Positions 11,206 to 39,701 of a stretch of DNA of 48,281 nucleotides are shown piece after piece. The stretch's first letter is position 1. Each line of letters starts with the position of its first letter. Both the position numbers and the translations under genes were made by a program. Where the stretch lies: the NCBI GenBank assembly GCA_017645765.1, contig JAGCNV010000015.1, positions 1 through 48,281 on the forward strand, given 5' to 3'. Under the pieces are notes generated by a model. It had not been told where the DNA came from. It did not search any database and was given only the letters and a program-made list of their open reading frames with translations. The DNA comes from a bacterium (lineage in GTDB: Bacteria; UBP6; UBA1177).

Positions 11206-11281
11206 TGGAGCGGGCGACGGGACTCGGACCCGCGACATCCGGCTTGGGAAGCCGACACTCTACCAACTGAGTTACGCCCGC
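11206..11281 (-). tRNA. tRNA-Gly (anticodon CCC), CCA encoded
   Basis: The minus strand folds as a full cloverleaf. The acceptor stem is GCGGGCG with CGCCCGC, with a D arm, the anticodon stem TCGGC/GCCGA around the loop TTCCCAA (anticodon CCC), and the T arm GCGGG-TCCGAGT-CCCGT. The discriminator is T followed by an encoded CCA. It sits between the serC terminator and tamB, with its own promoter immediately upstream. Confidence 0.97.
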
Positions 11282-35706: not shown

Positions 35707-37593
35707 TTACTCGCTGACTTTCGCTTTCAGATAGTATGATTTGAGAACTTTATAGACGATAGGCGCTGCCGTACTTCCGCCGTGAGCACCGCTTTCAACA
35801 ACGGCAACAGCGACAACTTCAGGATTTTTGTACGGGAAAAACGCCGCGAAAAGAGCGTCATCCTGCATCAGGAACTTCTTTTCGTCCTCAGTCTGGTCGA
35901 CACTTCTTCTTTCAGCATTGGAGACGACCTGGCTTGTTCCCGTCTTTCCTGCCGCGTCGGGTATCGTGTGGTCGGCATGGTGAAATGCCGTTCCGCCAGG
36001 CTCGTTCGTGACAGACCAGAGTGATTTGTTCACATCGTTGAAATGCTGCTGTTTTATGTTGAGGACACGAACCACTTCGTTTTCGATTTCTGTTGCCGAG
36101 CCGTCTTCGTGGATTATTTCGTCAACGATTTTGGGTTTTACGATCACTCCTCCGTTTGCAAAAGCGGCGTATGCAACAGCAATTTGAAGCGGAGTCATTC
36201 TGATGTCGCCCTGTCCGATCGACATGTTCATGAGCATTCCGTTGTTGATCCTCATTCCAGGATAGTTCATCGCAAACCAGCTTCGCGTCGGCAGAATCCC
36301 GTTTTCCTCTCCAGGAAGATCGATTCCGGTCGCCGTTCCGACTCCGAAAAGAGCAGCAAAACGGGTCATTCTGTCGATGCCGAGATCCTGCGAAAGGTAG
36401 TAGTAATAGATATCGCAGCTCTCTTTCAGCGAATGGTAAAGATTCACGAATCCGTGTCCGCCCCTGCTCCAGCAGCACTTGGTGTCGCGTCCGAACGAAA
36501 GGCAGCCGCTGCAGAGATAAGTCGATTTCGGCGTTATAAGGCTGTAGTGAAGCGCGGTCACGGCGGGAATTATCTTGAAAGTCGAACCCGGGAAGTAAGT
36601 CTGCCTGATAACTTTGTTGAGCAGCGGGTGAAGTATGCTCTGGCTGTATTCGCGCCATATTTTTTCAGGGATCCTTTTTCTCGAAAAAAGGTTTGTGTCG
36701 TAGGAAGGACCCGAATAAAGTGCCAGTATCCTTCCGGTTTTCACTTCCATAACGACCACGGCACCGCTCAGCTCTCCCAATGCGGAAGCTGCCGTTTCCT
36801 GAAGGTAAGAAAGAACTGTCGTCCGGACCGAATCGCCTTTTGAAGCGTGTTTCGTCTCAGGAATCGCACCGTCAATATTTTCAGGGAGCTCGATCTTTCG
36901 CCCTAAATAGTCGATAACATGGAAAGTTTCGCCGTATTCGCCGTGAAGCTCGTTTTCATACCATTTTTCAAGTCCCGTCTTTCCGGTTGAATCTTCGGGA
37001 TCGTAAGTCGTGTATGTTTCAAGTTCCGACTGGTTTATTTTCGAAACATAACCGGTTATATGCGCCGTCACTTCGCCGTAAGGATAGACCCGCCTGTACG
37101 ATGAAGATATAATGGTTCCCGTAAAATTGGTCAAATATCCGGAATAACTGAGAATTTTCTTTTTAGGAATTTCGTCTTTGACAAGCATCGGAAGATACTT
37201 GCAGCGGCCGTAACATCCGTTAAGTCTTGAAAGAAGACGTTTTTTTTCGTTTTTGGAAAGTTCTATCAGTGAGCTCAGCCTGTCGACCTGCTCTTCCATC
37301 TGGTCGCTTTTGGCAAAAAATATAGGAACGACCGATATTTTGAAGGAAGGTTCTGTCGAAGCCATAACCGGACCATCGGAAAACAGGATCTCGCCTCTCG
37401 CCGGAAAAATCTTCTCGCTCAGGATGAAGTTGTCACGCGATCTGCCGTAAAATTCGTCTCCGTGAATGACCTGAAGGACAAACACTCTGACCAGAAGAGC
37501 CAGAAACGAGAAAAATATTACATAGATAAGAGGACGCGTCTTTTTGCAGATGTTTTTGACTTCATCAGCCTGATTGAGAATCCTCACAGCCAA
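35707..37593 (-). CDS. mrdA: Penicillin-binding protein 2 (elongation transpeptidase)
   Basis: This 628-residue class B PBP has one N-terminal membrane segment (about 22-43), a PBP-dimerisation domain, and a transpeptidase domain with S337-T-F-K (catalytic Ser), S392-C-D, and K-T-G-T-S near residue 535. S-C-D in place of S-x-N is usual for PBP2. A Cys/His-rich loop (C361-x-x-C364, C373-C374, H380) before the S-C-D motif suggests a metal site. It crosslinks peptidoglycan for cylindrical growth with the Rod complex. Its start overlaps the mreD-like gene by 10 nt. RodA is not visible in the window. Confidence 0.94.
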   Translation of the reverse strand: MAVRILNQADEVKNICKKTRPLIYVIFFSFLALLVRVFVLQVIHGDEFYGRSRDNFILSEKIFPARGEILFSDGPVMASTEPSFKISVVPIFFAKSDQMEEQVDRLSSLIELSKNEKKRLLSRLNGCYGRCKYLPMLVKDEIPKKKILSYSGYLTNFTGTIISSSYRRVYPYGEVTAHITGYVSKINQSELETYTTYDPEDSTGKTGLEKWYENELHGEYGETFHVIDYLGRKIELPENIDGAIPETKHASKGDSVRTTVLSYLQETAASALGELSGAVVVMEVKTGRILALYSGPSYDTNLFSRKRIPEKIWREYSQSILHPLLNKVIRQTYFPGSTFKIIPAVTALHYSLITPKSTYLCSGCLSFGRDTKCCWSRGGHGFVNLYHSLKESCDIYYYYLSQDLGIDRMTRFAALFGVGTATGIDLPGEENGILPTRSWFAMNYPGMRINNGMLMNMSIGQGDIRMTPLQIAVAYAAFANGGVIVKPKIVDEIIHEDGSATEIENEVVRVLNIKQQHFNDVNKSLWSVTNEPGGTAFHHADHTIPDAAGKTGTSQVVSNAERRSVDQTEDEKKFLMQDDALFAAFFPYKNPEVVAVAVVESGAHGGSTAAPIVYKVLKSYYLKAKVSE

Positions 37594-38078
37594 GTCTCCT
37601 TATAAAAAAGAGTATCGACTTTCGGCTTGAAGGCAACGAAGAGAAAAATCAGTATGAACACAGAAAAAAGTGACGGGAAAATAAACGAAAAAGCTGAAAA
37701 GTCCCCTGTAAAAACATAGCTGTAGAGTATTTTATCAAAATTTATCATAAAAGATGCAAGTATCGCGTTCAGAAGCGCTGTCAAGGAATAGTCGAACGCC
37801 GTCGAAGCAAAAAAAGCAACCGTGAGAATGTAGATCTGAAATGCAACCGTTAAAATAAAGAGAAACGGAAGAGGTGCCGCCGCCTGAGAATAGATCAAAG
37901 TTGCCAAAGTCATGTAAGTTATTCTTTTTCTTACATTTTTTTCAGTATACAAAATTGTTGCGACTATCGGAAAGTGAGGAAAAAGAAACTGCGAAATTTC
38001 CAAAGAATAAAGAATGAAGACAAACAGCGCGAACGCCAGAAGCAGTTCAAACACAAATTTGAAAGAGAGAGTTTTCAC
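37584..38078 (-). CDS. MreD-like rod-shape membrane protein
   Basis: This polytopic membrane protein of about 164 residues has five or six hydrophobic segments. MreD sequences are poorly conserved, so the call rests on size, topology, and position directly before mrdA (10-nt overlap) and after a cell-wall peptidase gene. I choose the GTG at 38078, with AGGTG 4-6 nt upstream. A TTG one codon earlier is possible. MreB and MreC are not adjacent, which is unusual for mreD. It follows tRNA-Arg by about 35 nt and is likely on the same transcript. Confidence 0.65.
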   Translation of the reverse strand: MKTLSFKFVFELLLAFALFVFILYSLEISQFLFPHFPIVATILYTEKNVRKRITYMTLATLIYSQAAAPLPFLFILTVAFQIYILTVAFFASTAFDYSLTALLNAILASFMINFDKILYSYVFTGDFSAFSFIFPSLFSVFILIFLFVAFKPKVDTLFYKETWL

Positions 38079-38113
38079 CAATCACCTGCGAAAAAACCAA
38101 AGAAACAAAAAAG

Positions 38114-38190
38114 TGGCGATCCCAACAGGAGTCGAACCTGTGACCTGTCACTTAGGAGGCGACCGCTCTATCCGTCTGAGCTATGGGACC
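38114..38190 (-). tRNA. tRNA-Arg (anticodon CCU), CCA encoded
   Basis: The minus strand gives a complete cloverleaf with acceptor GGTCCCA/TGGGATC, an anticodon stem GTCGC/GTGAC around CTCCTAA (anticodon CCT in DNA), and a T arm ending GTTCGAC. The discriminator is G followed by an encoded CCA. Its first ten bases are also the last codons and stop of the M23 peptidase gene. Confidence 0.96.
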
Positions 38191-38933
38191 GTCTTTGGCA
38201 AATTCTCCAAAGGATCGACCGGTTCCGATCCTTTTCTTATCTCGAAATGAAGGTGAGGTCCGGTCGCCTTTCCCGTCTGTCCGACCAAGGCGATCTTTTC
38301 GCCCTTCTTGACCTGTTTCTGTTCACTTACGAGATTTTTCGAATTATGCGCATAAATCGTAAAACTGTTGTCCAGATGTAAAATTATGATCGTCATACCG
38401 TATCCGCTTTTTTCGCCGGAAAAAACGACTTTTCCGTCAGCAGCGGCATAAATCGGTGTTCCTTCGGGACATCCGATGTCTATCCCGCTGTGTTTCTTCC
38501 CCCAGCGGGTACCGAATTTTGAAGTAACGACCCCTTTTACCGGCCATATATACTGACTCGGTTTTCCTGGTTTTGCAGGTTGGGCTGCTTTGGAAGGTGG
38601 ATTGCTTTTCGCCTTCGGAGCAGGTTTCGCTGCCGGCTTATCGGATTTTACATCCTTATGATTTTCTTTTTTCGCATTTGAAGGAGCAACTGCCGCCTTT
38701 CCGCCCGCTTCGAGCGGAGCAGCCACACCCGGAACGAAGATGTAATCTCCGGGCATGATCTTTTTTGCGTCGGGGATATTATTGTTTTTCTCCAGATTGT
38801 CAACAGTAGTTCCGTAAAGTTGTGCGATACTATAGAGAGTTTCGTTCTTTTTCACCTTGTGATAAATTCCGAACGGAGCGGCGCACGACAGAAACGCGAA
38901 CATTGAAAATATAAGAATCAGGAACTTTTTCAT
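38181..38933 (-). CDS. LysM/M23 peptidase lipoprotein (NlpD/EnvC-like)
   Basis: This 250-residue lipoprotein (lipobox F-L-S-C, Cys17) has a LysM domain (residues about 25-70: Y-H-K-V-K-K-N-E-T-L-Y-S-I-A ... P-G-D-Y-I-F-V-P), a Lys/Pro/Ala linker (about 75-130), and an M23 metallopeptidase domain with H-S-G-I-D-I-G (zinc His and Asp) and H-L-H-F-E. The zinc ligands look complete, so it may cut peptidoglycan itself, although some NlpD-type relatives only activate amidases. The ATG at 38933 has GGAGAGAG upstream. The stop codon lies inside tRNA-Arg. The order peptidase, tRNA, mreD, mrdA puts it in an elongation or division wall cluster. Confidence 0.93.
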   Translation of the reverse strand: MKKFLILIFSMFAFLSCAAPFGIYHKVKKNETLYSIAQLYGTTVDNLEKNNNIPDAKKIMPGDYIFVPGVAAPLEAGGKAAVAPSNAKKENHKDVKSDKPAAKPAPKAKSNPPSKAAQPAKPGKPSQYIWPVKGVVTSKFGTRWGKKHSGIDIGCPEGTPIYAAADGKVVFSGEKSGYGMTIIILHLDNSFTIYAHNSKNLVSEQKQVKKGEKIALVGQTGKATGPHLHFEIRKGSEPVDPLENLPKTVP

Positions 38934-38944
38934 CTCTCTCCAAC

Positions 38945-38985
38945 AAAAAAACGCGGAATTTTAACGATTTTTTAGCCAAATTCAA
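38945..38985 (-). promoter_or_regulatory. Promoter of the M23 peptidase/tRNA-Arg/mreD/mrdA run
   Basis: TTGAAT (38985-38980), a 16-nt spacer, TAAAAT (38963-38958), then TCCGCG and seven T (38951-38945). The T-run ends 11 nt before the ATG, so the leader is very short. No other promoter is evident before mreD. Confidence 0.8.
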
Positions 38986-39096: not shown

Positions 39097-39113
39097 AGGA
39101 GGTGTCGAAAAAA

Positions 39114-39701
39114 ATGAGAAATTTCGCTACTTTATTCTTTTTTATTTTCATTTTCCCGTTTTTTCTTTCAGCCAAGGAACCGGTTCAGGTCGCTATTCTC
39201 CACAATGACGGATACACGCTTTATCAGGAATTCAGACCGAATGACAACACCTATAAAAATACCGTACGCGATATGGAAGTTCTCGCTTCGAAACACAAAA
39301 ACAAAGTTTTTTCTCAAGCTGCGACTCTGGTTAAAACAATACAGAACAAATGCAAAACATATTATGATATAAATACAAAACTCATTGAAATACTTAAGAA
39401 AAAATGGTCGAAACCTCATTATGCCGACATGGATGAAGAGTGGAAAGAGACAACTTTTGCAAAAGACAGGAAAAAAGTTCAGGATATTCACAGGCTTTCG
39501 CTCGGAATGCAGCAGGCTTACAACGACTGGAACGAACTCAGGAACAAAGCTTTTGAAAAAAAAGATATAAAAGAGATTGCGAAAGAACTCGAAAAAGCGA
39601 ATGATGCTCTGAAAACGACTATCGACGGAGTTCTGGCTGAAGAAAAACCTGCTATGGATGCAATTGCAAAAGAGTTGGAAATAATGAAAATGTCAAAATA
39701 A
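39114..39701 (+). CDS. Exported helical protein, unknown
   Basis: This 195-residue protein has a signal peptide (M-R-N-F-A-T-L..., cleavage near F-L-S-A-K). The remainder is Lys/Glu-rich and largely helical with coiled-coil character in residues about 120-190. AGGAGG lies 11 nt before the ATG at 39114; a GTG 12 nt earlier sits on the ribosome site itself and is rejected. It is 13 nt from folD and probably co-transcribed with it. I recognise no family. The helical, charged, periplasmic make-up is loosely Skp- or OmpH-like, but there is no motif to support that. Confidence 0.75.
   Translation: MRNFATLFFFIFIFPFFLSAKEPVQVAILHNDGYTLYQEFRPNDNTYKNTVRDMEVLASKHKNKVFSQAATLVKTIQNKCKTYYDINTKLIEILKKKWSKPHYADMDEEWKETTFAKDRKKVQDIHRLSLGMQQAYNDWNELRNKAFEKKDIKEIAKELEKANDALKTTIDGVLAEEKPAMDAIAKELEIMKMSK

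Follow-up and report, generated by a model that had tools for sequence, protein, structure and literature searches.

The window, that is, the whole stretch of 48,281 nucleotides that we analysed (contig JAGCNV010000015.1 of assembly GCA_017645765.1), encodes on its minus strand a LysM/M23 peptidase whose reading frame runs into the gene for tRNA-Arg(CCU), and two further protein genes follow the tRNA. Listed from 5' to 3' on the minus strand, the features are:

38958..38985, minus strand: promoter-like site TTGAAT-16-TAAAAT before the M23 gene (sigma-70 scan)
38934..38941, minus strand: ribosome-binding-site-like GGAGAGAG before the M23 ATG (read from the sequence)
38181..38933, minus strand: open reading frame (ORF) for a LysM + M23 peptidase, 250 aa (Pfam M23, 9.8e-37; LysM, 4.5e-11)
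38190..38191, minus strand: predicted RNase P cleavage site, separating 38191 from 38190 (inferred), with the upstream piece ending CCA AAG AC
38181..38190, minus strand: M23/tRNA overlap G-GTC-CCA-TAG, the stop being tRNA U8-A9-G10
38114..38190, minus strand: tRNA-Arg(CCU), 77 nt, CCA encoded (ARAGORN; Rfam RF00005, 62.1 bits)
38107..38112, minus strand: run of six T, one base past the encoded CCA, with no terminator predicted there
37584..38078, minus strand: 164-aa hydrophobic protein beginning with GTG 35 nt past the tRNA (called mreD from its position alone)
35707..37593, minus strand: PBP2, mrdA (TIGR03423, 553 bits against a cut-off of 455)

The M23 peptidase is a predicted lipoprotein, as judged by eye, and its zinc/metal-binding motifs HxxxD and HxH are intact, as they also are in the 18 orthologues that we compared with it. 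Its gene has no AGG codons, which rules out autoregulation through them; tRNA-Arg(UCU) is also encoded and may read AGG too. Close to the 3' end of the peptidase gene (window 38209-38234) there is a hairpin that occurs in the five closest species only and is terminator-like on the plus strand. A divergent gene of 199 aa (window 39102-39701, plus strand) adjoins the peptidase gene in most of the genus, with 82-96% identity and no Pfam match.

The tRNA has standard pairs throughout its stems under the Rfam tRNA model, and its sequence is identical in all 12 overlap-bearing species of the genus (g1). T-runs follow it in all of these species and in the overlap species of genera g2 and g4. The 164-aa protein downstream matched no Pfam or NCBIfam profile, the MreD profile included; it is probably MreD, given its position next to mrdA, and the ends of its gene and of the PBP2 gene overlap.

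At the junction the minus strand reads ...GAG AAT TTG CCA AAG AC/G GTC CCA TAG/CTCAGACGG (slashes bound the overlap), and the tRNA part resumes with CTCAG after the TAG. ARAGORN, the ORF and the sequence itself all bear out the first-pass annotation, which had placed the end of the M23 gene and its TAG inside tRNA-Arg(CCU) on the same strand. The shared stretch is exactly 10 nt, as had been described, but base 1 of the tRNA is the third base of a Thr codon (ACG), and the only codons contained entirely in the tRNA are those for Val and Pro and the stop.

TAG is very common at tRNA positions 8-10, and the stop position of an in-frame ORF entering a tRNA is therefore unremarkable. The element that is not due to chance is that a supported gene enters a tRNA at all. 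As a control set we used the tRNA and tmRNA genes in the fetched loci of three genomes (40 in G000, 37 in G006 and 35 in G020). Among the 40 collected from G000, the M23/tRNA-Arg(CCU) pair is the sole overlap by a supported protein gene; the remaining ORFs that overlap tRNAs there are short or unsupported. One of these lies in the window, where a 110-aa ORF ends with TAA at positions 8-10 of tRNA-Gly(CCC) (11206-11281). We judged it spurious, since the close relative G006 does not conserve it and tRNA-Gly(CCC) is preceded by a promoter of its own.

Nineteen orthologues could be read at their 3' end, and 17 of them have the exact 10-nt overlap: 12 from g1 (this genome included), one genome each of g2 and g4, and three of family f3. 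It thus spans three genera of one family (f1) and a second family of the same order, while identity among the M23 orthologues falls to about 45% and the length of the tRNA varies (77 or 79 nt). In g2, one codon is missing right before the tRNA, and the frame and the 10-nt overlap are unchanged. The relatives, where named, are ruminant-gut assemblies, some of them labelled bacterium UBP6. In four genomes (G001, G019, G022 and G024) we found neither the M23 orthologue nor tRNA-Arg(CCU), which may reflect draft gaps, and no M23-tRNA layout was seen among the more distant matches from other phyla (L050-L067). Every genome used is a draft or metagenome assembly, so that an assembly or sequencing artefact might be suspected; the identical junction in 17 separate genomes from different hosts and studies refutes this, and we give it practically no credence. 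The overlap is hence not peculiar to one assembly, the point on which the first-pass annotation had advised a comparison with relatives.

The M23-tRNA pair stays joined while its neighbours differ. In f3 pyrD is immediately followed by the overlapping peptidase and tRNA genes, g2 and g4 show other contexts, and the mreD-like gene and PBP2 follow in g1 only. We therefore rejected these two genes as part of the conserved unit. The earlier statement that MreD and PBP2 come after the tRNA holds for g1 and not for the other genera, and the mreD label lacks profile support. The exceptions to the overlap are two species of g1 (G004 and G010), in which M23 and tRNA lie 45 nt apart and M23 has its own TAA. 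They fall within the g1 clade of the peptidase tree (support 93/99), their exact position there being unresolved. Family f4, an outgroup within the same phylum, has tRNA-Arg(CCU) as a solitary gene, with no M23 gene nearby.

Promoters were scored with a sigma-70 weight matrix over at most about 70 nt upstream of each tRNA, a scan that assumes sigma-70-type sites. Most stand-alone tRNAs scored 8.5-13. tRNA-Arg(CCU) scored 1.8 in G000 (39th of 40), 1.8 in G006 (last of 37) and 0.7 in G020 (last of 35), no better than the coding sequence of the window (mean 4.0, sd 1.9), and none of the 17 overlap genomes has a sigma-70-type promoter-like site between peptidase and tRNA. The site before M23 is identical in nine of the 12 overlap species of g1 and reads TTGAAT-16-TAGAAT in a tenth. 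Its score is 8.9 in most g1 species; in g2 and g4 the site is TTGACA-17-TATAAT and scores 15.1, comparable in strength to tRNA promoters. No promoter-like site precedes M23 in f3, as expected behind pyrD. The tRNA-Arg(CCU) genes of f4 have promoters just upstream (TTGACA-17-TATTAT or TTGACT-18-TATTAT).

In the split clade this arrangement is reversed. TCGAAA-16-TATTAT, with a -10-like element, precedes the tRNA in both species (it is the top pick in G010, and an overlapping site scores equal in G004), and no good site remains before M23, where the promoter score is down to 1.7-1.9. No other observation argues as strongly that the overlap species make the tRNA from the M23 transcript, on which it most likely depends. 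A separate promoter before the tRNA, which the first-pass annotation had named as evidence against its reading, was accordingly not found in the overlap species; the exception is this derived two-species clade. M23 transcripts could nevertheless be rare relative to the demand for the tRNA, which counts against the reading that we prefer below. Most of the tRNA might instead come from a promoter within the M23 gene that escaped recognition, with M23 messages ending elsewhere and the shared RNA rare. The restriction of the scan to sigma-70-type sites leaves room for such a promoter, but stand-alone tRNAs have clear TTGAC-type promoters and tRNA-Arg(CCU) has none in any of the 17 genomes, and the mreD-like gene begins only 35 nt past the tRNA; we consider this account distinctly improbable.

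By parsimony, the simplest history starts from a solitary tRNA that was joined to M23, losing its promoter, in the common ancestor of the order; the pair then moved as a unit through several gene contexts and was split once. If the tRNA lost its own promoter at the fusion, the two genes could no longer easily be separated. A second LysM/M23 copy adjoins pyrD without a tRNA in several genomes (L191-L196, L124, L125 and L126) and has a variable C-terminus, unlike the tRNA-bound copy. In f1 this second copy remains beside pyrD and the tRNA-linked copy lies elsewhere. In G017 both copies stand in tandem behind pyrD, and the contig ends before any tRNA.

RNase P cuts at the 5' ends of tRNAs, and cleavage here should make the M23 transcript nonstop, ending ...LPK-AC. 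A protein made from the cut message would be short of Thr, Val and Pro only. In g1 and g4, pairing of C-1 with G73 is possible and might move the cut by one base. The cloverleaf is part of the most stable predicted precursor fold in no more than about half of the species. In this species leader and trailer pair in the precursor fold (z -1.0); we rejected this pairing as a signal because it is not conserved across 12 species, in which no conserved extra structure was found around the tRNA. The first-pass annotation had proposed that the processed transcript yields a stop-less peptidase message, a substrate for ribosome rescue. The predicted cut would indeed leave a message that lacks its stop, and a tmRNA (tag ANNNFALAA) and SmpB are encoded. 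Among the release-factor-like proteins we detected two of RF1/RF2 type and no match to a third, ArfB-type protein.

We infer from this layout that the two genes are co-transcribed, that RNase P cuts the RNA and that the nonstop message is translated. Our preferred reading, held with moderate confidence, is that peptidase and tRNA share a transcript on which the RNase P cut and full-length translation exclude each other, with tagged enzyme made afterwards. The promoter before the peptidase gene would drive the unit, except in f3, where transcription would probably come from the pyrKD operon. To arrive at the UAG of tRNA positions 8-10, a ribosome would need the acceptor strand and D-arm unfolded, and it would yield full-length enzyme. 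While terminating there, it would keep the acceptor and D-arm strands from pairing, so that finished translation and tRNA folding should exclude each other at every instant. Ribosomes that follow RNA polymerase closely, the first on the message, may reach normal termination at a time when RNase P has as yet no tRNA to act on. Once the tRNA has folded and been cut, later ribosomes would run off at ...LPK-AC and need tmRNA/SmpB. Each transcript would thus give one tRNA, untagged enzyme up to the time of the cut and tagged enzyme from then on.

The same steric argument could be taken further: M23 ribosomes might keep the tRNA unfolded to the point that RNase P seldom cuts translated transcripts, in which case nonstop messages would be rare and the tRNA would come from untranslated ones. 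From its general footprint, a ribosome terminating at tRNA positions 8-10 should indeed cover the 5' strands of acceptor stem and D-arm; RNase P, however, is generally fast on folded precursors, and we regard this outcome as rather unlikely.

The mechanics of the preferred reading are compatible with the absence of any benefit. The overlap may have arisen once, by loss of a stop before the tRNA, and may be kept only because breakpoints inside it kill a gene, with no regulation involved; we see this as equally likely to hold or to fail. The cost of nonstop translation would be small, as tmRNA would clear it and the enzyme would be complete at ...LPK. Such an accident is made easy by U8-A9-G10, a ready-made stop, and by the loss of only three residues from the protein, and it agrees with the survival of the clade that lost the overlap and with the unconserved leader-trailer pairing. 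It also agrees with the Lys codon before the tRNA, for which we rejected a special constraint: 9 of 17 other well-conserved Lys columns vary equally little at the third position. Against it, a one-base escape that would end the overlap (AAG or CAG to TAG) is available in all 12 overlap species of g1, in 11 of which the codon before the tRNA is AAG, and is used in none; selection on the C-terminus could explain this.

Alternatively, the overlap could be a selected switch in which RNase P and tRNA processing set the amount of M23 peptidase, more tRNA maturation giving less hydrolase. The cell would thereby couple wall cutting to its translation capacity, and tmRNA capacity would enter as another input, much as arfA is controlled. 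Retention of the overlap across the order through changes of neighbours would fit, as would the strong M23 promoter of g2 and g4. The unused one-step escapes would fit too, a weak argument given that the C-terminal residues may themselves be needed. The split clade lost the overlap without replacement, which speaks against a switch, and linkage itself needs no overlap, as two other linked tRNAs keep gaps of 7-19 nt. We think a selected switch rather unlikely. That RNase P processing of tRNA-Arg(CCU) is a conserved post-transcriptional governor of the wall hydrolase, with enzyme made only until the tRNA is cut, after which tmRNA would clear the ribosomes, is likewise an improbable proposition; if true, wall cutting would be linked to the maturation of the tRNA as well as to the capacity for ribosome rescue.

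Mukai (2021, PMC8124441) described bacterial selB genes in which tRNA-Sec is nested or which overlap it in part, and called this the first tRNA found nested within an ORF of a bacterium. In one of the partial overlaps the stop falls at tRNA-Sec positions 46-48, and some relatives have lost the overlap; that tRNA processing produces a nonstop mRNA was proposed there without experiments. The M23 case resembles selB/selC in that a bacterial protein gene enters a tRNA gene on the same strand, with conservation, a nonstop logic and loss in some relatives. In selB/selC, tRNA-Sec is paired with its own elongation factor SelB and the whole tRNA is usually nested, whereas here an ordinary elongator tRNA and an unrelated wall enzyme share 10 nt. 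By analogy, the M23/tRNA pair would work in the manner of selB/selC. In E. coli arfA, an RNase III cut at a hairpin has been shown experimentally to give a nonstop message under tmRNA control (reviewed in PMC3989581). For M23, removal of the stop by an endonuclease, in a genome that encodes tmRNA/SmpB, is predicted from RNase P specificity; arfA differs in its nuclease, its hairpin and its product, a rescue factor, in place of RNase P, a tRNA and a wall enzyme. In mitochondria, tRNA excision defines mRNA 3' ends without an encoded stop, which polyadenylation completes (PMC9674279). Excision would likewise set the end of the M23 message without a stop, but poly(A) could not complete it: the message ends in AC (g1), GC (g4 and f3) or AA before G1 (g2), and an added A gives ACA, GCA or AAA. 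The secG-leuU transcript of E. coli is an mRNA-tRNA cotranscript from which the tRNA is reportedly freed by tRNA-processing enzymes (Mohanty and Kushner 2008). There too the tRNA is downstream of a protein gene, but the secG-leuU message is not known to lack its own stop codon before the tRNA, and the M23 stop lies inside the tRNA. We found no earlier report of an M23/tRNA-Arg overlap in the open-licence literature.

If cutting occurs as expected, one gene would routinely yield a stop-less message, a natural standing substrate for ribosome rescue, and would offer a direct test of tRNA processing and translation competing for one RNA. The case also illustrates that the common U8-A9-G10 of tRNAs can supply a stop codon that is kept through an order. 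Where annotation pipelines discard protein genes that overlap tRNAs, similar cases may be hidden.

The two other linked tRNAs are found in both f1 and f3 (L086 and L096 in G000; L146, L154, L175 and L178): HPF/S30AE is followed by tRNA-Arg(CCG) after 7-12 nt and HU by tRNA-Pro(GGG) after 16-19 nt. On contig C34 of G000 (L084), a TadA-like deaminase gene lies between tRNA-Arg(ACG), a known TadA substrate, and tRNA-Ser(CGA); it ends 3 nt before the latter in G000 and G006 and 12 nt before it in G017. Finally, contig C146 of G016 (L123:2740-2785) contains the 3' half of tRNA-Arg(CCU), positions 33-77, near an open 135-aa ORF without Pfam match at the contig end, and this half resembles the edge of an element integrated into tRNA-Arg(CCU).
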